64,000 bases of DNA from a virus, in the IMG/VR virus record IMGVR_UViG_3300037517_002278, positions 1 through 64,000 of that record; one strand, 5' to 3'. Below are positions 23,438-63,833 of this stretch, one piece after another. The stretch's first letter is position 1, and the number at the start of each line of letters is the position of its first letter. A program made the translations under genes and the position numbers. The notes under the pieces are model-generated. The model was not told the DNA's origin, did not search any database, and saw only the letters and a list, made by a program, of their open reading frames with translations.

Positions 23438-26119
23438 ATGCCATCACAAAACCAATTTCCTTGGTCAACCGTTGAAAAAATTGCCGCAAATCTATTCACC
23501 AATGGTTTTCATAGTGGAATTAGTTTTGCTTATGATTCACAGAATGGAAGAATAAACGCAACTTCTACGGGCGGCGGTGGCGGCGGTTCAACACCACCAA
23601 GTTTAAGCATAACTACTCAGGGAGCGTCTGGGTCTGGAGCATTAACATATAATAGTACATCTGGCGTTCTAACTTTTACTCCACCACTACTAACTGGATA
23701 CGCACAAAAGAATGCTGCTGAAACATTCTCTTCATTAGTGGTTGGAACAAGTACAACATCGCCAACTGTTTTAGCAAACACTATTACGAATACAACTGGT
23801 GGTCCAGTTTCATTTAGCGCAGGACTGGATACACCTTCACTAAGAATTAATGGATCAAATGGTATATCTGGTCAATATCTAACAAGCACTGGTGCGGGTG
23901 CTACGTGGACAACTACCAGTTTTATCTCGGAAAATTCCTCACCAACATTATCAAATTTAAGTATAACTGGTAATCTTAATGTAGTTGGAACGATTACAAC
24001 AAATAATCTAACAACATTAAATGTTACTAACAATCAAATTATATTAAATGATAGTGTTGTTGGACAACCAACAGCTAATGCCAGTATCATCGTTGAAAGA
24101 GGATCTTCAAATGATACTGTTATTCGTTGGAATGAATTGAGTGACAGGTGGGAGTTTACTAATGATGGAATTACATACCAGAACATTCCAGTTCCAACTG
24201 ATTATAATAATTACAATAATTTACTGAATAGACCAACTATTCCAGCAGCACAAGTGAATGCTGATTGGACAGCAACAACTGGGGTTAGTGCTATTCTAAA
24301 CAAACCAACATTGTTTAGTGGAGCATATGCTGATCTAACTGGCAAACCAACAATTCCTACATTACTACAAAATCTTGGTAATGTTTCATCTGCCACTCCA
24401 ATAACAGGAAACATTTTGCGTTGGGATGGCACTCAATGGGCGCCTGCTTCCGCTGGTGGATCTGGAAGTGGTGGTGGAACCATGATTGGTCCAGTCACAT
24501 CAACTGATAAAGCAATCGCAAGATGGAATGGAACAACAGGAAATGAAGTTCAAGACTCATTAGTTACTATATCTAATGATGGAGCAATTACTGCTCCAAG
24601 AACTAATAACCTTATTCCATTTTATTATGCCAGTATTGCTGAATTTCCTTCTGCTTCTGGAAACGAAGGTGCTTTGGTTTACTCGCAGTCTGGCGGTGCT
24701 CTATATTATTCTCATTCTGGTAGTTGGACAAATCAAAGAGTTGTAACAACTTCAAGCTCTACATCTTCAGATCTTCAAACACTCATTGGAAACTTTCAAC
24801 AAACATACTCTACATCGGTACAAGATTATACTGTTGGCAATACACAGCAAAATGCCGAAAGAAAAATTTTAAGACTCTCTGCTTCTGGTGGTGCCACGAG
24901 TGATGTTATTGTCAGAGCAACAAGCGGACTCAACATTTCCAGAGTCAACAATGAACTCACAATTACAGGAAGAACATATAATTTTAGTAGTGAAGCATCT
25001 GCTGGCAATACTGTTAAATTAAGATTACAAGAAATCGGTATTGCTACTACAAATACCGATATCACTTTTGCTGGTGCTGATGGATTATTGGTTGAAAGAA
25101 CCAACGCAACCACAATCACATTCAGAGCTCCAGCAAATACAGTAACTCAATATACAGATGCGGCGGCAAAAGATGCTGCTGCGTTGATGTTGATTAATGG
25201 TAGTAAAGTTGGAGTTACATATACTTATGATAGTGTCAATAAAGTATTAAACACTATTGTTAGCGGCGGCGGTGGTGGTGGCACTGTTATTACATATGAT
25301 TTACAAGGCAGAAATACTACCAGTAACAACGCATTCGTTGATCTTGTTCCAAGTAGTGGATTAACGGATAGCATTGAATTTGTTGGTAGTGCTGGCACGA
25401 CTGTAAACTGGGATTCTGGAAACAGAAGAATCACGATTGGTAGCGTTGCTCCAGTTCAAGCAGACTGGAATCAAACTAATAATTCTTCTCTTGATTTTAT
25501 TAAGAACAAACCAACCATTCCTGCTGCGTACACACTTCCAACTGCTTCTGGTTCTGTCCTTGGTGGAATTAAAGTTGGTGCTAACTTAAGTATTGATGTC
25601 AATGGTGTTCTTAGCGCAAACACAGGTAGTTATACATTACCAACAGCAACCGCAACAGTTCTTGGCGGTATCAAGATTGGATCTGGATTAACCATTGATG
25701 GAAATGGAGTTGTCAGTGCTTCTGTAGCAGCAAGTGTTCCAACAATTCAAGAATTAAGTGGAACTACTGCGTCATTAGCTCCTGACACAACAGCAGAACT
25801 AAATATTACTGGATACAAAGCATATTCACTATTTAAAATTACAACAACTGCTGAGGCATGGGTTCGTGTATATACAGATGACGTATCAAGAGATGCTGAT
25901 TCAACAAGAAGTGAAGGAACAGATCCAACAGCAGGTTCTGGTGTTATCGCTGAAATAAGAACTGATGGTGTTACAAATACAGTATTAATCAGTCCAGGTA
26001 TCTTGGGATTCAATAATGATAGTCCAAGAACCACAACAATCTATCTCTCTGTTACAAACAGAAGTACCTCATCCACCCCAATTACAGTAACTCTAACAGC
26101 ATTAAAGATCGGAGAATAA
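23438..26119 (+). CDS. Tail fibre protein
   Basis: This 893-residue protein begins MPSQNQFPWSTVEKIAANLFTNGFHSG after an AGGA ribosome site. Glycine runs (GGGGGG near residue 46, GSGSGGG near 345) act as flexible joints between beta-rich stretches. The recurrent ADWxxTxxxxxxILNKPTI/DLTGKPTIP motifs (around residues 255-310 and 680-695) are well known in cyanophage fibres. The C-terminal 120 residues (TASLAPDTTAELNITGYKAYSLFKI...SPGILGFNN) form a compact domain probably at the tip. It is the first gene of the inverted fibre block and is predicted to bind the host surface. Confidence 0.8.
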   Translation: MPSQNQFPWSTVEKIAANLFTNGFHSGISFAYDSQNGRINATSTGGGGGGSTPPSLSITTQGASGSGALTYNSTSGVLTFTPPLLTGYAQKNAAETFSSLVVGTSTTSPTVLANTITNTTGGPVSFSAGLDTPSLRINGSNGISGQYLTSTGAGATWTTTSFISENSSPTLSNLSITGNLNVVGTITTNNLTTLNVTNNQIILNDSVVGQPTANASIIVERGSSNDTVIRWNELSDRWEFTNDGITYQNIPVPTDYNNYNNLLNRPTIPAAQVNADWTATTGVSAILNKPTLFSGAYADLTGKPTIPTLLQNLGNVSSATPITGNILRWDGTQWAPASAGGSGSGGGTMIGPVTSTDKAIARWNGTTGNEVQDSLVTISNDGAITAPRTNNLIPFYYASIAEFPSASGNEGALVYSQSGGALYYSHSGSWTNQRVVTTSSSTSSDLQTLIGNFQQTYSTSVQDYTVGNTQQNAERKILRLSASGGATSDVIVRATSGLNISRVNNELTITGRTYNFSSEASAGNTVKLRLQEIGIATTNTDITFAGADGLLVERTNATTITFRAPANTVTQYTDAAAKDAAALMLINGSKVGVTYTYDSVNKVLNTIVSGGGGGGTVITYDLQGRNTTSNNAFVDLVPSSGLTDSIEFVGSAGTTVNWDSGNRRITIGSVAPVQADWNQTNNSSLDFIKNKPTIPAAYTLPTASGSVLGGIKVGANLSIDVNGVLSANTGSYTLPTATATVLGGIKIGSGLTIDGNGVVSASVAASVPTIQELSGTTASLAPDTTAELNITGYKAYSLFKITTTAEAWVRVYTDDVSRDADSTRSEGTDPTAGSGVIAEIRTDGVTNTVLISPGILGFNNDSPRTTTIYLSVTNRSTSSTPITVTLTALKIGE

Positions 26120-54500: not shown

Positions 54501-56306
54501 CTATTCTTGAATTAGTGTAAAAGAACTCTTTTCAATGTCTACATCAAGATAAATTTGACGCTTTGCGATAATATCATTATATTGTGGTTTTAATCTTATT
54601 TCTATTTTGTTGTCGGAGAATGATCCCTTGATGATATTTAAATTATATAATCTGACATCACCTTTCGCATAATCAATTTCGCCTTGTTCAGAATTTAGGA
54701 CTATCTTATCACCAGTTTGCGAATCTAAGCGATATAAAACTACTTTGGAACCTCTATCCTCAAGGTAAACAATATTATTTGGATATTGCTGAACAACAAA
54801 TCCAGTAGACACTAAAGTTTGTGTATCAATGTCATCATCAAATGGATTACTCAAGCAAAATTCATAATAAGCACTACTATTTAATGCTGGATAAAAATCT
54901 TTTCTCATGATAACATCAGTCAAATTAGATTTGATTGCCTTTTCAGAAGCATCAATTGTGCTAATTGCTTTACTGTATCTAAATTTGCCACCAAATTTTT
55001 CAGTATCTGATAACTGAATATACTTAGTTAAATTAGAGATAACTTTTTCCTTAAGTTGATTTGAATTTAAGTTTGTTGAGGACTGGTCATAATAGACTCT
55101 CGAATTCAATTCTACAAAAATAATTGAAGGGTCAACAATTTCAGGAGTGACAGCAGCCACCGCATATTTTTTAATTTCTTGTAGAATTAAATTTTTGGTG
55201 TACGATGAAAGAAAACTTAACTCTCTTGGTTTGATTGATACCTTTACTTTTCCATATTCAGGTGGATTATCTTCTTCGCCACCATATGAAATAATATCAG
55301 CGATTGCTGGGTATATTCTTCTTACAATCGCTTCATAGTCTAGTGTCGTAACAGCACGATTCTGCGCTCCAAAACTCGCTGGAGCGTTCTGTTTGATGCT
55401 TTCTATACTTTCTATGCCAGCGCCACCAAACGCCTTCGTGAGCGTTGTAACGTTATTAACAGCAACGGTGAAATTGGTATTTCCAGCAACGTCTGCGATT
55501 AGACCGTTGTATGTAAAAACAGAAGCTCCATTCGTCGCATCGGCGTTTGTTGTTAAGTAACTTATTTCAATAACTTGACCAGCAATGAGTTTCTTACCAA
55601 AAATTCCGTCGCCAAATGTAATCTTATAATTTTCATCTTCAACTTCAGTGACAAAATATGTCGGAGAAGTGGCGCCAACATTTAAAATATTATCTGACTG
55701 TACAAATTTTTGAAAAGAAGAGGAATTAGAACTCTCATAAACATTGATTCTAATTGATGAGGTATCAATGTTTTGGTTTTGTAAAAGTACGCTATATGAA
55801 CCAGTATAAGCAGGAACAGTATATGTGTTTGAAATGTATAGTCCCTCGTAAATTTTAACGTCTGTGAAATTTACAGTATTGTCGGGCAAAACATTTGCCT
55901 GTACATCATCAAGTAAAACATATTGATATACAGTTTCATCTATATTTGTTAAAAATGAATTTCCTCTTTTTAAAAATACAGATTGTGGCAAGTTAACTCC
56001 ACTTAGAATAATATTCAGATTTACAGCAGCTGATGCTGCCACCGCTGAACGTGGAGTGTAACCCAATTCTTTTGCTCTCGCAACAACATTATCTCTTAAA
56101 GTTGCTGAGTCAAGAAAAGTCTCATTAACGCTCATGTTAGCGTTAAATGATGTGTAATACGTGTTATATGCCAACACGTCAAGCAATGTTCCAAGGGTTG
56201 ATCCCTCGAAGTCATAATCAGTAAATTCAGAATTCGCTCTCAGATAATCTCTAAGAGCATTTTTTATTTCAAAATAATCTAAACTTGTTAACTGATTATA
56301 TGCCAT
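54501..56306 (-). CDS. 6: Baseplate wedge protein gp6
   Basis: This 601-residue protein (T4 gp6 is 660) is the gpJ-like wedge subunit that forms the inner baseplate iris with gp25. The N-terminal ALRDYLRANSEFTDYDFEGSTLGTLLDVLAYNTYYTSFNANMSVNETFLDSATLRDNV region is diagnostic. So are EISYLTTNADATNG-like strands near 245 and the ITTLDYEAIVRRIYPAIADIISYGGEEDNPPEYGKVKVSI segment near residues 315-355. Its ATG overlaps the gp25 stop as TAATG. The assignment is firm. Confidence 0.95.
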   Translation of the reverse strand: MAYNQLTSLDYFEIKNALRDYLRANSEFTDYDFEGSTLGTLLDVLAYNTYYTSFNANMSVNETFLDSATLRDNVVARAKELGYTPRSAVAASAAVNLNIILSGVNLPQSVFLKRGNSFLTNIDETVYQYVLLDDVQANVLPDNTVNFTDVKIYEGLYISNTYTVPAYTGSYSVLLQNQNIDTSSIRINVYESSNSSSFQKFVQSDNILNVGATSPTYFVTEVEDENYKITFGDGIFGKKLIAGQVIEISYLTTNADATNGASVFTYNGLIADVAGNTNFTVAVNNVTTLTKAFGGAGIESIESIKQNAPASFGAQNRAVTTLDYEAIVRRIYPAIADIISYGGEEDNPPEYGKVKVSIKPRELSFLSSYTKNLILQEIKKYAVAAVTPEIVDPSIIFVELNSRVYYDQSSTNLNSNQLKEKVISNLTKYIQLSDTEKFGGKFRYSKAISTIDASEKAIKSNLTDVIMRKDFYPALNSSAYYEFCLSNPFDDDIDTQTLVSTGFVVQQYPNNIVYLEDRGSKVVLYRLDSQTGDKIVLNSEQGEIDYAKGDVRLYNLNIIKGSFSDNKIEIRLKPQYNDIIAKRQIYLDVDIEKSSFTLIQE

Positions 56307-56701
56307 TAGACTCTAGTTCTTTCTAGGAAGAGGGTAATACTGTCGGTTTTTTCTGGTAATCCAACAATAGAGTAATCAATCTCTACGTCATACCCATCAT
56401 CACTATCATTTATATCAACACTTACTGAGTTTAATAGCACTCTTGGTTCAAACGCATTGATGGTATATTCGATTTCTTCTCTAATAGAAGTGGCATTAAT
56501 GAAATCTAATGGTTCAAATAGTAGTTGGGTGATGCGACTGCCAATATTTGGATTGAAAAATCTTTCACCAGGGTAAGTGGTCAAGAGATTTTCGACGGAT
56601 TTTTTAATCGCAACGAAATCCTTGACCACCATAAGATCATTTGTAATAGGATTTTTAGCAAATGTAATGCTAAGATCTTTAAATGACCTACTTTCAGGCA
56701 T
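56306..56701 (-). CDS. 25: Baseplate wedge protein gp25
   Basis: This 131-residue protein matches T4 gp25 (132 residues), a lysozyme-like-fold sheath initiator that nucleates tube and sheath on the wedge. The invariant EPR motif is at residues 85-87 (INAFEPRVLL). The N-terminal SITFAKNPITNDL and RFFNPNIGSRITQLLFEP segments are typical of the family. It starts the gp25-gp6-gp7-position operon and is preceded by a perfect late promoter. Confidence 0.95.
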   Translation of the reverse strand: MPESRSFKDLSITFAKNPITNDLMVVKDFVAIKKSVENLLTTYPGERFFNPNIGSRITQLLFEPLDFINATSIREEIEYTINAFEPRVLLNSVSVDINDSDDGYDVEIDYSIVGLPEKTDSITLFLERTRV

Positions 56702-58999: not shown

Positions 59000-59413
59000 T
59001 CAGCAGTCGGAAGATTCTACATCAAAGAACAAAAACAAATTGATGCGTTTCTGACGACAGCGATTCGGTTGAGTATTAATTACAGTTGGAGGGACAACTA
59101 CAGGACCACCAGATCCTTGAAAGAAACTCGGCGGGTGGTATTGAATCTGAGATTGAGGTGCGTACTGAGCAACGTTAACGTAGTTTTGGCGTAGTTTGCC
59201 ATACCTACGAATAAGATCTGCTTCTACCTGTTTCATATTCTGAGTGATGCCAGGTCCAGGGCTGATGCGAATCTTACCGCCGTCTGGGGTGTTATATACA
59301 GCACCTTGGGGTTTATCAGACCATTCGGTAGCATACTGTTGGGCAATAGCATGAGAGCTCAAAGGAAATGCGATGGTCGAAGCCATGGCACTCGCAATTA
59401 CGAAGTGTTTCAT
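59000..59413 (-). CDS. Small secreted or periplasmic protein
   Basis: This 137-residue protein starts MKHFVIASAMASTIAFPLSSHAIAQQ, a clear Sec-type signal peptide with likely cleavage after SHA or AIA. The mature part includes GGKIRISPGPGITQNMKQVEADLIRRYG and a Pro/Gln/Gly-rich segment, then CRQKRINLFLFF and a final cysteine. The family is unknown to me. It is a single-gene unit with its own TTGACA/TAGGAT promoter and a terminator. Export suggests a role at the host envelope, such as exclusion, but this is inference. Confidence 0.65.
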   Translation of the reverse strand: MKHFVIASAMASTIAFPLSSHAIAQQYATEWSDKPQGAVYNTPDGGKIRISPGPGITQNMKQVEADLIRRYGKLRQNYVNVAQYAPQSQIQYHPPSFFQGSGGPVVVPPTVINTQPNRCRQKRINLFLFFDVESSDC

Positions 59414-59465: not shown

Positions 59466-59670
59466 GCTTTCTGTGAGCATCTTCAAAAGTTCTTTGAGGA
59501 CTATGAAGATATACGAAAACTCTTCGCTTGGCGTGGTTCGAGTACTTAGAGGTTTTTGAGTCATTTTTTTGTGGGAAAAATTTTTTTTATGAAAGCGAAA
59601 ACAGTCGAGCGTTTTCAAAGTTTTGTAGGTTAATAGTATCTATCAATTTTGGTATCGCTCGGCCGCGCCG

Positions 59671-59690
59671 TTATAACGATAACGTTATAA
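59671..59690. repeat. Inverted repeat at the island edge
   Basis: TTATAACG and CGTTATAA face each other across the four bases ATAA, forming an 8-bp stem or an operator-like dyad. No T-run follows directly on either strand, so termination is not the obvious role. Confidence 0.5.
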
Positions 59691-59705
59691 AATAACTGTC
59701 CGAGT

Positions 59706-59724
59706 GCCCCCCTGCTCGGGGGGC
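59706..59724. terminator. GC-rich hairpin ending the GC-rich island
   Basis: GCCCCCC and GGGGGGC form a 7-bp stem with a five-base loop. It lies just after the HicA-like gene's stop on the minus strand and could end island transcription, although the T-rich stretch only begins about 12 bases later. Confidence 0.5.
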
Positions 59725-59740
59725 GTGGTAGGATGGCGGG

Positions 59741-59950
59741 TCAGGTGGCAGCGGCGAGCGCCTTGCGAACGACTGCCGACATGCCAGGTGAGATGGTGCT
59801 GCGTCCCTTGCTGCCATGGGTCGGGACGATCAGATCAGACTGCCAGGCGGGATGCCTCCAGACTTGATGCGACGCTGTGGTTCGCTTGAGCACAGCGCCA
59901 ACCTGTCTCAGCTGGCGCTCGGCGTCTCGGCACTTGAGAGGGGATGCCAT
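59741..59950 (-). CDS. hicA: HicA-like mRNA interferase
   Basis: This 69-residue protein (MASPLKCRDAERQLRQVGAV) has the HicA/YcfA pattern: a helix, then GAVLKRTTASHQVWRHP with candidate catalytic H28, then a strand DLIVPTHGSKGRSTISPGMS and a final helix VVRKALA. HicA toxins are double-stranded-RNA-binding-fold RNases that cleave mRNA and are normally checked by a HicB partner. No HicB is evident next to it; the gene four bases upstream is unrelated by eye. A GAGG ribosome site precedes the ATG. It is the last gene of the GC-rich island. A phage role in degrading host mRNA is possible. Confidence 0.75.
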   Translation of the reverse strand: MASPLKCRDAERQLRQVGAVLKRTTASHQVWRHPAWQSDLIVPTHGSKGRSTISPGMSAVVRKALAAAT

Positions 59951-59953
59951 GGG

Positions 59954-60136
59954 TCAGTCCTCGTGGGTGAACAGGGGCAGGCGGGCGAGCGCCTCATCAC
60001 GGTAGCGGTCGGCGTGGGCACCTGCCAACCACGATGCCTCTACGGTGATGGGGACCAGGCGCCCCATGGTCTGCTGTGCGTCATCAGTCGGGCGACCTGC
60101 CCACACGATCTGGCGGGTCTGGAGGTCGGATGCCAT
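59954..60136 (-). CDS. Small protein co-transcribed with HicA-like gene
   Basis: This 60-residue frame from MASDLQTRQIVWAGRPTDDAQQT continues to ADRYRDEALARLPLFTHED. A start four codons earlier at 60148 is equally possible. It ends three bases before the HicA-like start, so the two are coupled. It lacks the HicB signature (an RNase H-like partial fold with YxAxxPDLPG), so calling it an antitoxin would be speculation. A TGTAGACT promoter-like box lies about 30 bases upstream. Confidence 0.55.
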   Translation of the reverse strand: MASDLQTRQIVWAGRPTDDAQQTMGRLVPITVEASWLAGAHADRYRDEALARLPLFTHED

Positions 60137-60174
60137 GGAGAGGATCATCGGTGTCTGTCGGTTGAACTGAGAGA

Positions 60175-60184
60175 AGTCTACAGG
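60175..60184 (-). promoter_or_regulatory. Degenerate island promoter box
   Basis: The minus strand reads CCTGTAGACT, the core of the island's 22-bp element, about 27 bases before the first possible start of the next gene. The downstream half of the element has diverged. Confidence 0.45.
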
Positions 60185-60193
60185 CGGCGCCGC

Positions 60194-60379
60194 TCAGTGG
60201 CGGTCGCTGATGTTCCAGATGCCCCACTGTCCACCGTTGGCGTGGGCGTCCCGAACTTCGATCGCTTCCATACGCTGGGCGCTGGTGTAGGTCGCCCAAC
60301 CCTCAGCGGTCTCGCTGGCGAGGGTGCTGCCGTAGCAGGCGTTCCAGATCAGGTTGGCGGTTTCGAGGGTCATGGTCAT
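60194..60379 (-). CDS. Small island protein
   Basis: This 61-residue protein (MTMTLETANLIWNACYGSTLASETAEGWATYTSAQRM...) begins with the same ATGACCATGACCCTC as the gene at 60459-60728, suggesting cassette duplication at its 5' end. It is polar and Trp/Ala-rich with no known domain. The leader carries a full copy of the island element. The function is unknown. Confidence 0.6.
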   Translation of the reverse strand: MTMTLETANLIWNACYGSTLASETAEGWATYTSAQRMEAIEVRDAHANGGQWGIWNISDRH

Positions 60380-60394
60380 GGGTCGTTTCGTTTC

Positions 60395-60416
60395 GATGCT
60401 GTTAGTCTACAGGGTC
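60395..60416 (-). repeat. Island 22-bp element, copy 1
   Basis: On the minus strand this copy reads GACCCTGTAGACTAACAGC plus ATC. It lies 16 bases before the ATG at 60379. TAGACT can act as a -10 box; no clear -35 is present. Confidence 0.75.
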
Positions 60417-60458
60417 GGGCGGCAGGATCGGGGGCATCAGTGGACACCCCCTCAACCG

Positions 60459-60728
60459 TCACAGCTCTGCCATCATGGCGTTCATCTCGTCGGCATCAAT
60501 GGCGACGCTATCCCATGCCACCCCGTCACGGGTCTGCCCGAGGTGGCGACCGATCATGCCATCCATCATGCAGCGAACGAACTTCTCCCAGGGGGTCTCA
60601 TCATCGCCACAGTACTCTACACATGCCTTGGCGGTGTTGTAGAGGAATTCATCGTTGCCGATCCACAGGGCGGCATTCCAGGTCTCGTAGGTTGCCCAAC
60701 CGTTGTAGGTGCTGAGGGTCATGGTCAT
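60459..60728 (-). CDS. YETWNxALW-motif phage protein (DUF7249-like)
   Basis: This 89-residue protein starts MTMTLSTYNGWATYETWNAA followed by LWIGNDEFLYNTAKACVEYCG. The YETWNxALWIxNDExLYN motif marks a small family seen in cyanophages and picocyanobacteria. The remainder (TPWEKFVRCMMDGMIGRHLGQTRDGVAWDSVAIDADEMNAMM) fits the family's length. The family function is unknown to me. It has its own copy of the island element, and either of two nearby ATGs may be used. Confidence 0.75.
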   Translation of the reverse strand: MTMTLSTYNGWATYETWNAALWIGNDEFLYNTAKACVEYCGDDETPWEKFVRCMMDGMIGRHLGQTRDGVAWDSVAIDADEMNAMMAEL

Positions 60729-60747
60729 GGTCTCGTTTCGTTTGGTT

Positions 60748-60769
60748 GATGCTGTTAGTCTACAGGGTC
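60748..60769 (-). repeat. Island 22-bp element, copy 2
   Basis: This copy is identical to copy 1 over the 22 bases. It ends 20 bases before the ATG at 60728 and follows directly on the stop of the gene at 60773. Confidence 0.75.
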
Positions 60770-60772
60770 GGG

Positions 60773-60913
60773 TCAGCGGATCTCTGCCAGGATGGACACC
60801 TTCTCAGCTGTCACACGGTCAAGGGTCTGGGCGAGGGCGAACACGCTGCCGAGGGTCTGAGCGAACATCAGGCAGATGCCAGCGATCAGGGAGAGGCGGA
60901 TCAGGTTTGCCAT
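60773..60913 (-). CDS. 46-residue membrane or secreted peptide
   Basis: Read from 60913, the protein is MANLIRLSLIAGICLMFAQT and then LGSVFALAQTLDRVTAEKVSILAEIR. Residues 4-28 form one hydrophobic segment that could be a signal peptide or single membrane helix, with a short charged tail. It lies between two copies of the island element and has the same ACC-rich leader without Shine-Dalgarno site. Tiny membrane peptides of this kind are common among phage early genes; the role is unknown. Confidence 0.6.
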   Translation of the reverse strand: MANLIRLSLIAGICLMFAQTLGSVFALAQTLDRVTAEKVSILAEIR

Positions 60914-60927
60914 GGTTGTCTGTGGTT

Positions 60928-60949
60928 GATGCTGTTAGTCTACAGGGTC
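60928..60949 (-). repeat. Island 22-bp element, copy 3
   Basis: This copy is identical to copies 1 and 2. It lies 15 bases before the ATG at 60913 and precedes the leader AACCACAGACAACC. Confidence 0.75.
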
Positions 60950-60960
60950 AGCGCCGCCGA

Positions 60961-61161
60961 TCAGGCGAGGCAGTGACGGTTCACCCACTGTCCCAGGGAG
61001 AGGGGGCGGATCACCAAGGCGCTCACCATGGCACGACGGGAGACACCTTCGAAGCGGTAAACCTTCCTGCTGCTGGTGAACTGTACCCGAGCGGTGCCCG
61101 TGATAGGATTGACGGTCAGGCGATGGATGGCGCTGCTGTTCTGGCGGATTCGGAAGATCAT
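60961..61161 (-). CDS. KTSC-domain-like protein
   Basis: This 66-residue protein (MIFRIRQNSSAIHRLTVNPI...) has the KTSC pattern: a beta-strand pair TARVQFTSSRKVYRFEGVSRRAM followed by a helix and SLGQWVNRHCL in place of the typical SxGxYxNxxI end. KTSC domains occur near lysyl-tRNA synthetase and in phages and are thought to bind RNA. The leader AACCACAGACAAACG follows a complete island element. The function in the phage is unknown. Confidence 0.65.
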   Translation of the reverse strand: MIFRIRQNSSAIHRLTVNPITGTARVQFTSSRKVYRFEGVSRRAMVSALVIRPLSLGQWVNRHCLA

Positions 61162-61176
61162 CGTTTGTCTGTGGTT

Positions 61177-61198
61177 GATGCTGTTAGTCTACAGGGTC
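61177..61198 (-). repeat. Island 22-bp element, copy 4
   Basis: This copy is identical to copies 1-3. It also encodes the last residues (DPVD) and the TAA stop of the upstream membrane-protein gene, so promoter and coding functions share the bases. Confidence 0.75.
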
Positions 61199-61348
61199 AG
61201 GGGGCGGCGTCTCGCTGCCTTGTGCCAGTTGATCAGGCGTCCCAGCCGTGAGTTTAATCAGGGCGACAATCGCCGCCACTCCTGCGGGTCCAAACCACAT
61301 GCAGAGGATGATACCCAGCAGGAGATAACGCTTGCGAATGTTAATCAA
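61184..61348 (-). CDS. 54-residue membrane protein starting at TTG
   Basis: Starting from a TTG that overlaps the ArdA-like stop (TATTGA), the frame gives MINIRKRYLLLGIILCMWFG and then PAGVAAIVALIKLTAGTPDQ. It ends LAQGSETPPPDPVD. Residues 9-32 are a clear membrane helix after a basic N-terminus, implying an inward N-terminus. There is no ATG in frame before residue 17, so TTG initiation by coupling is the simplest reading. The C-terminus and stop lie inside an island element. The function is unknown. Confidence 0.5.
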   Translation of the reverse strand: MINIRKRYLLLGIILCMWFGPAGVAAIVALIKLTAGTPDQLAQGSETPPPDPVD

Positions 61349-61776
61349 TAGTCGCTGAAGATGTGGCAGGAACGATAGGACGTGCCATCATCACAAGAGG
61401 TGAAATCGTAGCGCAGGTTGCGATCGTAAGTTGCCTCCCAATCAATCACCAAACCATCGGGAACATTCATGGTTTCGTTATAGTAATCCTCAGCGAAGTC
61501 TGCCTCAGAATCGTAACACCCACGGTAGCGATCATCGCAACCTTCGATGTTATCAATTCCATCCTCACTGGCGAGTGCATCTACTGCCTCGTATCCGATC
61601 GCTTCACCACAGCGAACATACTCCTCGTAGATGTTAACGAAGGCACGCTCATTGTACTCATCAATGAACTCCAGAATGTCATCCAGAGCGTAGTTATCTT
61701 CGAGCAATTCTTCGATCTTCTCGACAGTTTCAGTGCTGAGAACTTCTTTGTAGTTAGCGGTCAAAGTGATGGACAT
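61345..61776 (-). CDS. ArdA-like antirestriction protein
   Basis: This 143-residue acidic protein (MSITLTANYKEVLSTETVEK...) resembles ArdA DNA mimics, which occupy type I restriction enzymes and stop them cutting phage DNA. The segments EEYVRCGEAIGYEAVDALASEDG and DDRYRGCYDSEADFAEDYYNETM match the ArdA fold, as does VIDWEATYDRNLRYDFTSCDDGTSYRSCHIF near the end (usual form xxDYExxARDLxxxDYxxxDGxHVF). The charge is strongly negative throughout. The start at 61776 is preferred; an upstream ATG would add a poorly coded, basic extension. It has the best sigma-70 promoter in the island (61894-61922). Confidence 0.78.
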   Translation of the reverse strand: MSITLTANYKEVLSTETVEKIEELLEDNYALDDILEFIDEYNERAFVNIYEEYVRCGEAIGYEAVDALASEDGIDNIEGCDDRYRGCYDSEADFAEDYYNETMNVPDGLVIDWEATYDRNLRYDFTSCDDGTSYRSCHIFSDY

Positions 61777-61893
61777 TTGTGAAGTGAAATGGTTTGGGGT
61801 GGGGCACCGATCTCCCCTACGGTGGTGAAGGATCTTACCCATGACCTGTCCCGATGTCGGGTGGTTTCGCTGGGAGGGTTCGCTTCTGAAGGT

Positions 61894-61922
61894 AGTATGG
61901 AGCAGATCGGGGGGAAAGTCAA
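61894..61922 (-). promoter_or_regulatory. Sigma-70-type promoter of the ArdA-like gene
   Basis: The minus strand has TTGACT (61917-61922), a 17-base spacer and CATACT (61894-61899). The transcript would carry a leader of about 110 bases, unlike the very short leaders of the other island genes. The leader contains GC-rich hairpin-forming stretches. Confidence 0.65.
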
Positions 61923-61947
61923 GCGGTCTGTGCCACTTGTTGAACTG

Positions 61948-62109
61948 TCACATCCCGTTCAGGAAATCGGCAAGCGCCTCCCTATACTCTGCCTCAGTCT
62001 CAAAGGTGCGACCGTGGATAGTACGGGGGTACTCTGCCTTAGGAGCAGGTGCCTTGCTGGGCTCCTTGCCCTGGGCGATGATCTGAGCGATGTAGGGGTT
62101 GTTTGTCAT
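61948..62109 (-). CDS. 53-residue island protein with near-leaderless start
   Basis: Read from 62109 this gives MTNNPYIAQIIAQGKEPSKA then PAPKAEYPRTIHGRTFETEAEYREALADFLNGM. The C-terminal helix with EAEYREALADFL resembles short adaptor-like phage proteins, but no family is recognised. The ATG lies only 6 bases after the TAGACT box of its island element, so its mRNA may have almost no leader. The function is unknown. Confidence 0.6.
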   Translation of the reverse strand: MTNNPYIAQIIAQGKEPSKAPAPKAEYPRTIHGRTFETEAEYREALADFLNGM

Positions 62110-62128
62110 GCTGTTAGTCTACAGGGTC
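62107..62128 (-). repeat. Island 22-bp element, copy 5
   Basis: This copy matches copies 1-4 in 21 of 22 bases; the single change converts the final ATC into ATG, which is the start codon of the gene at 62109. Confidence 0.75.
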
Positions 62129-62162
62129 AGGTGGGGGATCCGATCCCCCTTGTGCCAGTGTG

Positions 62163-62354
62163 TCAGGCGTCCATCCCCATCGCTGCCTTCAGGTCGTTGT
62201 ATGCCTTCAGGTAGTAGTCTGCATCGCTGCCCTTACCTGCCACGCGGCAGTCACAGGCAAGGCACAGGAGAGCGGTACGGATCGTGCTCCACTGTGCCTC
62301 GGTGAGGGTCACCGTGGCGAGGTCAAGGGGAAGGACGTTGGTTCGGACGGTCAT
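62163..62354 (-). CDS. 63-residue island protein
   Basis: This protein (MTVRTNVLPLDLATVTLTEAQWSTIRTALLCLACDCRVAGKGSD...) has the shape of a short helical bundle with YYLKAYNDLKAAM at the end. The start at 62354 is preferred because it follows the same AAACGACCCG leader found before other island genes; an upstream ATG would place the promoter inside the gene. A TATACT box lies about 26 bases upstream. The function is unknown. Confidence 0.62.
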   Translation of the reverse strand: MTVRTNVLPLDLATVTLTEAQWSTIRTALLCLACDCRVAGKGSDADYYLKAYNDLKAAMGMDA

Positions 62355-62379
62355 CGGGTCGTTTGATTGAACTGGAATC

Positions 62380-62385
62380 AGTATA
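62380..62385 (-). promoter_or_regulatory. -10 box TATACT of the 63-residue gene
   Basis: TATACT on the minus strand lies 25 bases before the ATG at 62354. The downstream leader (CAATCAAACGACCCG) matches other island leaders, although the 22-bp element itself is absent. Confidence 0.5.
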
Positions 62386-62434
62386 GAGGTTGACGGGGTG
62401 GGGTGGGAGTGGTAGTGTACCACTCCCTGAACTG

Positions 62435-62569
62435 TCACTCCTCGGGTCCGAAGCAGCACTCAAGGCAGAACGCCTCCAGCTCTGCATCATCATCCATGGG
62501 CCAGGGTTGATCGAAGATCTCACCCTCGCAGTCCTGAATCTCATCCCAAAGGCAGGTGTCGAAGTCCAT
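62435..62569 (-). CDS. 44-residue acidic island protein
   Basis: Read from 62569 this is MDFDTCLWDEIQDCEGEIFD then QPWPMDDDAELEAFCLECCFGPEE. It is extremely acidic with five cysteines (C6, C14, C35, C38, C39), suggesting a metal site or a small DNA-mimic-like protein; both are guesses. The start is chosen because the AAACGACCCG leader and a TATACT box precede it. A longer frame would include the promoter. Confidence 0.58.
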   Translation of the reverse strand: MDFDTCLWDEIQDCEGEIFDQPWPMDDDAELEAFCLECCFGPEE

Positions 62570-62594
62570 CGGGTCGTTTGCTGTTGACTCCCTT

Positions 62595-62600
62595 AGTATA
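62595..62600 (-). promoter_or_regulatory. -10 box TATACT of the acidic 44-residue gene
   Basis: The minus strand reads GACCCTATACT ending at 62595, closely resembling the first half of the 22-bp element (GACCCTGTAGACT). It lies 26 bases before the ATG at 62569. Confidence 0.5.
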
Positions 62601-62669
62601 GGGTCAGCAGCGCCCCCTACAACCCCCCCGTGTGCCACCTCTCAAACTGGCCGCGGCGACCTAGACAGA

Positions 62670-62696
62670 TGCCCTCTAGGCGACTAACCTAGAGGG
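62670..62696. terminator. Perfect 10-bp hairpin at the right island edge
   Basis: GCCCTCTAGG and CCTAGAGGGC pair perfectly across a seven-base loop. It lies between the phage gene ending at 62744 and the first island promoter and could insulate the island. There is no T-run on either side, so classic termination is uncertain. The rest of 62601-62743 holds no gene that I can support. Confidence 0.5.
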
Positions 62697-62743
62697 CGGG
62701 AGGGGAGGGAAGCAAGGGGGCAGCGAAGCGGCCGCTCAGTTTG

Positions 62744-62938
62744 TTATACTAATACGTGGCGATAATCAATGGATTTAATACACCAACCCATCGCACATGT
62801 AACCTCTTCAACTAGATCATCTTCATCATCTGCCTCCCAGATGTGTCCTACTGTGTCACCGATAATGTCATCACGCTCTGCATCTGTGAGGTCTTCATCA
62901 TCAAAATCAAACTCAATTTCAGTGATTTGGTACAACAT
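62744..62938 (-). CDS. Small acidic conserved phage protein
   Basis: This 64-residue protein (MLYQITEIEFDFDDEDLTDA then ERDDIIGDTVGHIWEADDEDDLVEEVTCAMGWCIKSIDYRHVLV) is strongly acidic. Near-identical patterns are frequent in T4-like cyanophages, where they have no assigned function. It returns to AT-rich phage composition, in contrast to the island. It starts three bases after the stop of the preceding gene and belongs to the same small operon. Confidence 0.75.
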   Translation of the reverse strand: MLYQITEIEFDFDDEDLTDAERDDIIGDTVGHIWEADDEDDLVEEVTCAMGWCIKSIDYRHVLV

Positions 62939-63740: not shown

Positions 63741-63833
63741 TTAAAGATTCTGAGGTTTCTGAGAATTTTAAGTTTTCAAGGTTTCTGAGAATTCAAGATT
63801 TCGTAAAATTCTCAGAAACCTCAGAATCTTTAA
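63741..63833 (-). terminator. 30-bp perfect inverted repeat covering a stop codon
   Basis: Positions 63741-63770 and 63804-63833 are exact reverse complements over 30 bases, with a 33-base spacer. The first arm on the minus strand contains the stop codon of the gene ending at 63830, and a T-rich GTTTTTAAA follows the second arm. Termination or mRNA 3'-end protection is likely. The spacer carries another partial copy of the arm (AGGTTTCTGAGAATT). Confidence 0.75.

Follow-up and report, generated by a model that had tools for sequence, protein, structure and literature searches.

A bounded array of small single-gene cassettes, likely shuffled at repeated promoters, upstream of the baseplate genes of T4-like cyanophages

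We analysed a guanine-plus-cytosine (GC)-rich island at positions 59,741-62,569 of a 64,000-nucleotide stretch of viral DNA (the window), which covers positions 1 to 64,000 of the 69,448-base IMG/VR virus record IMGVR_UViG_3300037517_002278. The window carries homologs of the baseplate genes gp25 (56,312-56,689) and gp6 (54,504-56,306), and its phage is therefore a T4-like cyanophage. The island is filled by eleven minus-strand open reading frames (ORFs) of 44-143 amino acids (aa) with intact stops, in agreement with an initial annotation, made from the letters alone, of ten or eleven very small minus-strand genes in this size range. That annotation also judged GC content to be near 60 percent against about 40 percent around it; measured, it is 0.585 over 59,700-62,740 and 0.376 in the whole window, with an abrupt step at either end. 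GC at third codon positions (GC3) is 0.54-0.84 in the island ORFs, against 0.26-0.52 in nearby small genes and 0.23 in the window's long ORFs. Long ORFs also occur on the plus strand of the island (e.g. 59,816-60,715, 299 aa); they are antisense frames that the GC-rich DNA leaves open, and have no support as genes. In the isolate genome S-PM2 (NC_006820; L226), the annotated ORF 23768-23974 lies on the strand opposite to the conserved ORF of the DUF7249 cassette (23789-24055; see Table 1 for cassette names), and is apparently a GC-driven misannotation.

The island is real and occupies a fixed place. Misassembly at its junctions, an objection raised with the initial annotation, was excluded: IMG/VR contigs are 100% identical over the upstream junction (L010) or over both junctions (L016), and the same junctions occur in many divergent contigs and in S-PM2, where the island lies at about 21-25 kb. 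An exact 22-base promoter repeat is present in fourteen stretches. Across 88 loci, fetched mostly using the DUF7249 cassette as bait, mean GC is 0.53 in the island and 0.38 in its surroundings, a difference that partly reflects definition, as island edges in these loci were set by a GC threshold. Each of the 89 loci with both DUF7249 and gp25 has the two co-oriented, and gp25 lies 1.5-5.7 kb downstream of DUF7249 in all of these except S-CAM8 and ACG-2014d. The island is thus found upstream of gp25/gp6 in fixed orientation, with exceptions among a few distant phages: it is weak in S-RSM4 and S-CAM8, and no GC-rich island is seen in P-HM1, P-SSM4, Syn9 or ACG-2014d. That it might be universal to cyanomyoviruses was rejected, since only part of them have it.

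Two conserved borders enclose the array. At the 5' border an exact 25-mer is shared by 22 viral contig stretches, the hairpin has a folding z-score of -2.6, and GC changes from 0.41 before to 0.52 after in 16 of 16 dereplicated loci. The core of the 3' border is common to about ten divergent loci including S-PM2 and was found by pattern in 13 viral contig stretches; GC there is 0.61 before and 0.41 after in 13 of 13 dereplicated loci. Where both borders are found, they stand 2.56-3.23 kb apart. Sharp conserved borders with palindromic motifs could be the ends of a mobile element or satellite that inserts here, which we consider highly improbable: place and orientation are constant in 89/89 loci, no empty site was seen among loci with both borders (whose spacing is never below 2.56 kb), and single genes, not the whole array, come and go. 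A second repeated element lies near stop codons on the minus strand, at 61929-61951, 62416-62438, 62631-62653 and 61221-61243 (TGACAGTTCAACAAGTGGCACA and variants). An exact 19-mer of this post-stop element (CAGTTCAACAAGTGGCACA) occurs in 20 viral contig stretches; the element resembles integron core sites, probably by chance.

At the head of most cassettes stands an extended -10 promoter with its leader, near-identical from one cassette to the next (GACCCTGTAGACTAACAGCATC...). The 13-mer CCTGTAGACTAAC has five exact copies in the window. Each of them lies within the island, on the coding strand and before a gene, and none of 100 shuffles reached five matches to it (allowing up to two mismatches); g2, g10 and g11 are preceded by variants (TAGACT or TATACT). 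With five exact copies, above what shuffling yields, and three variants, the promoter-like leaders that had been noted by eye for most of the genes are real. In 60 dereplicated islands the -10 motif occurs at 93 coding-strand and 6 opposite-strand sites, and 87 of the 93 precede an ORF start, 16 at a distance of exactly 6 nucleotides (nt) and 71 at 20-30 nt. The conserved A in the 6-nt class is the A of the ATG, and in the other class the same A starts an A/C-rich leader; a purine-rich, ribosome-site-like word is present in only 4 of 73 leaders. Transcription usually starts about 7 nt past a -10 element, and the 6-nt class is therefore predicted to yield leaderless mRNAs. Upstream of the ArdA-like gene stands a consensus match of another type, TTGACT-17-CATACT, although such matches are overall not above shuffle numbers. 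Cyanomyoviruses are without alt, modA and modB, and transcription of their early genes is believed to rely on host RNA polymerase with sigma-70, left unmodified (PMC2984593); by analogy, the cassettes are probably transcribed early by the host polymerase.

Comparison with relatives shows that single genes have been gained, lost, duplicated and reordered, as expected from the early description of the locus as a cassette region. The locus L006 is 93% identical to the window through the flank and then differs by whole genes. Identity spans g5, continues through the DUF7249 promoter and leader and ends there, other sequence replacing DUF7249 and g3; at g10 a different gene stands behind the shared promoter; and g7, which has a 65% identical homolog in S-PM2, is missing from the corresponding place. 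These junctions are abrupt, at the boundary between leader and ATG. All-against-all comparison gave 107 ordered pairs that share the upstream gene and promoter and diverge between -26 and +30 nt from the ATG, with 31 continuing into the same gene, and 118 further pairs in which promoter and gene are common and the upstream sequence differs, most of them beginning no more than 20 nt ahead of the end of the -10. As each pair is counted in both directions and some loci are related, these numbers describe a pattern, not independent events. Similarity blocks seldom end within ORFs, and gene content and order vary between loci, the ArdA-like and KTSC-like genes being duplicated in L044. In L012 (12395-12793), g3 and g2 form a single ORF of 132 aa, in which two cassettes are apparently fused. 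The island might be an ordinary variable region, generated by illegitimate recombination or mispackaging, with promoters that are alike only since every gene needs one, as argued for the neighbouring ORFanage deletion of S-PM2 in PMC4503421. We find this unlikely, as breakpoints concentrate at the promoter-leader and hardly ever interrupt an ORF, and the leaders of unrelated genes are near-identical well past the -10, up to the start codon.

We therefore think it likely that the island is a bounded, position-locked array of probably early-expressed one-gene cassettes, shuffled by homologous recombination at repeated promoters in Synechococcus-type T4-like cyanophages. A cassette consists of a promoter-leader block and one small ORF, occasionally two, and the promoter-leader of about 35 bp, nearly identical between unrelated cassettes, would double as a homology patch. 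Where two copies or two related phages come together, homologous recombination, presumably via the phage's own recombination-dependent replication, could place a gene behind the promoter of a different cassette. Such exchange would add, drop, duplicate or replace genes while leaving ORFs unbroken and every gene still behind a promoter, and the products, probably host-takeover or counter-defence proteins, would be expressed immediately, by the host RNA polymerase in its unmodified state. Several observations weigh against this interpretation, in addition to the interdependence of the pair counts. The -10 promoter sites show no conserved -35. A stem-loop before every promoter was borne out only in part: a perfect stem of at least 6 bp lies upstream of 26% of promoters (about a quarter of sites) versus 6% of island positions drawn at random, and folding gives weak z-scores (mean -0.56 versus -0.08). 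The island of the isolate S-PM2 has only a few promoter-like sites before ORFs. Some of the breaks could also be due to fast spacer divergence, which however fails to explain unrelated genes behind identical leaders.

How the island came to be GC-rich is a separate question. It was initially thought to gain genes from GC-rich host or phage sources, which, if recent, would have left DNA yet to drift to the phage's AT-rich composition. In favour of such import, island codon usage correlates at 0.92 with a Cyanobium locus and at 0.80-0.83 with further loci from that family, against -0.09 with the rest of the phage, but this likeness may be common to any GC-rich genome. Moreover, the same genes are GC-rich in island-bearing relatives, where homologs average 0.56-0.63 GC for every cassette except the ArdA-like and DUF7249 families. 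DUF7249 shows 0.51-0.57 identity at 4-fold sites at 65-75% protein identity (chance expectation 0.44), and so is near saturation at these sites, yet its GC3 remains high in the GC-rich group. No DUF7249 relatives appeared when about 85,000 species genomes, bacterial and archaeal, were scanned, and neither the promoter 16-mer nor the ArdA-like protein, a query without a positive control, was found in 151 host-family genomes. Distant HicA matches in 5 of these 151 genomes (43-45% over about 45 residues) show that the search was able to find matches there. With no relatives of DUF7249 or of the ArdA-like protein found in the genomes scanned for each, and a composition common to related phages, recent import is unsupported and, in our judgement, very unlikely.

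The codon correlation with host-family loci would suit translational adaptation, in which early genes carry host-like codons and are translated before the phage alters the host tRNA pool. It would also suit this idea that P-HM1 and P-SSM4, which are without an island, infect Prochlorococcus, whose genomes are AT-rich; however, Syn9 and ACG-2014d are Synechococcus phages and have none either. Furthermore, the spacers between stop and promoter are 69% GC, versus 34% in the window's other non-coding DNA, and share with third codon positions an excess of C over G, so that codon choice alone is insufficient. We regard translational adaptation as a possible, though less than probable, account. A recombination-linked bias is a possible cause of the high GC. 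More speculatively, and with rather more doubt, the island may be a lytic-phage analogue of a cassette array, with borders, a dual-role promoter-leader, a closed pool of genes traded mainly among such arrays, and GC kept by GC-biased gene conversion at the seams, which would explain spacers as GC-rich as third codon positions.

Turning to the individual cassettes (Table 1), DUF7249 scores well above its Pfam cut-off (125.8 bits against 27, E 1.4e-36) and is known in 218 phage records; its structure prediction is of low confidence (predicted local distance difference test score, pLDDT, 61.3). The suggestion that recognisable members point to counter-defence and host interference found weak support. 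The HicA-like protein passes Pfam HicA_toxin (PF07927) marginally, at 27.9 bits against a cut-off of 27. No HicB antitoxin partner was recognised next to it, as the adjoining g2 matches nothing in Pfam, NCBIfam or PHROG; g2 and the HicA-like gene (59741-60148) are adjacent also in L006, L008, L009 and L190, with no promoter in between, and the pair is possibly a toxin with an unrecognised partner. The ArdA-like protein matches PHROG 36653, labelled anti-restriction (E 2.7e-47), and is strongly acidic (38 acidic and 9 basic of 143 residues, a trend seen in 36 relatives), but falls under the Pfam cut-off for ArdA (PF07275; 23.8 bits against 27), and its predicted model (pLDDT 86.9) has no PDB match with E < 1. 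The KTSC-like protein likewise scores below the Pfam KTSC cut-off (PF13619; 15.4 bits against 25), and matches PHROG 7365 (E 2.8e-17). PADLOC and NCBIfam gave no matches. Counter-defence roles are thus weakly supported, and a host-takeover or counter-defence role of the cassette products is plausible.

Table 1. Cassette genes, promoter-leaders and borders of the island, in window coordinates.
Feature	Position	Strand	Details
5' border	62655..62745	-	Conserved non-coding block (GGCGGCCGC ... CTTCCCTCCCCTCCCGCCCTCTAGG) with 11-bp hairpin; conserved in 15 fetched loci
g11 promoter-leader	62570..62608	-	GACCCTATACTAAGG...
g11	62435..62569	-	44 aa, acidic; found in 7 loci
g10 promoter-leader	62355..62392	-	CCTCTATACTGATTCCAGTTCAA...; swap junction versus L006
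g10	62163..62354	-	63 aa; unrelated gene in its place in L006; found in 15 loci
g9 promoter	62110..62128	-	Start codon 6 nt past -10; predicted leaderless mRNA
g9	61948..62109	-	53 aa; PHROG 649
Promoter-like site before ArdA-like gene	61894..61922	-	TTGACT-17-CATACT, long leader; other type than remaining promoters
ArdA-like acidic protein	61345..61776	-	143 aa; lowest GC in array
g7	61184..61348	-	54 aa, hydrophobic; TTG start overlaps ArdA-like stop
KTSC-like gene promoter-leader	61162..61198	-	13-mer scan
KTSC-like protein	60961..61161	-	66 aa
g5 promoter-leader	60914..60949	-	13-mer scan
g5	60773..60913	-	46 aa; N-terminal half hydrophobic
DUF7249 promoter-leader	60729..60769	-	Exact swap seam versus L006 and L036
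DUF7249 (PF23907)	60459..60728	-	89 aa; most widespread cassette
g3 promoter-leader	60380..60416	-	13-mer scan
g3	60194..60379	-	61 aa; found in 20 loci
g2-HicA cassette promoter-leader	60149..60183	-	CCTGTAGACTTCTCTCAGTTCAA...
g2	59954..60148	-	64 aa; leads two-gene cassette; found in 32 loci
HicA-like protein	59741..59950	-	69 aa; without own promoter
3' border	59641..59706	-	GGACAGTTATTTTATAACGTTATCGTTATAACGGCGCGGCCGAGCG palindromic block; 22 BLAST matches

Two features lie close to the island. Immediately downstream of the array, 59000-59413 encodes a 137-aa protein with a secretion-signal-like N-terminus. Just outside the island on the other side, at 63741-63833, a perfect 30-nt inverted repeat with a 33-nt loop overlaps a second partial repeat; Rfam returned only sub-threshold, microRNA-like chance matches for it.

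An integron is an array of single-gene cassettes in a fixed place, and in this the island resembles it; the island differs in that the seam lies upstream of each gene, at the promoter-leader, and in that each cassette has its own promoter. Closer to T4-like biology are promoter-early stem-loops (PeSLs), regulatory cassettes that are mobile among T4-like phages (Arbiol 2010; Comeau 2014) and are taken here as summarised in PMC4503421, which cites both. As with PeSLs, the island has small genes in a hyperplastic T4-like region, each behind a putative host-type promoter repeat that serves as exchange point, and the promoter is the junction of unrelated sequences in related phages. Unlike them, it has a stem-loop at only about a quarter of its promoters, an extended -10 without a conserved -35 and a leaderless variant, and it occupies a fixed GC-rich place with conserved borders. 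It is also denser, in the same phage group as S-PM2, for whose ORFanage PMC4503421 reports a low PeSL density and judges the PeSL mechanism unlikely. The S-PM2 island lies at the end of this ORFanage (ORF 002-078; PMC2984593, PMC4503421), which likewise holds variable small orphan genes near gp25, whereas the deletion of ORF 017-050 that arose in the laboratory (5.8-15.3 kb) excludes the island; in the passages of the two papers that were searched, no mention of a GC island, this promoter repeat or the borders was found. A 2-3-fold read peak near the S-PM2 ORFanage is taken as terminal redundancy in PMC4503421; if it lies on the island, it might be a GC effect. The hyperplastic region g15-g18 in cyanomyoviruses (Millard 2009, as cited in PMC2984593) shares with the island its variable cassettes and the phages that carry it, but is located elsewhere and carries metabolic genes derived from hosts; for the island no host source was found.

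Phage genomes are rich in tiny early genes of unknown function, whose gain and loss go largely unseen. For the island, the sequence itself shows the exchange unit together with its seam and borders, in phages with cultured representatives. The array also lists genes with which marine Synechococcus phages probably take over their hosts, and it is a clear-cut example in which to ask how part of a genome retains a base composition unlike that of the rest.

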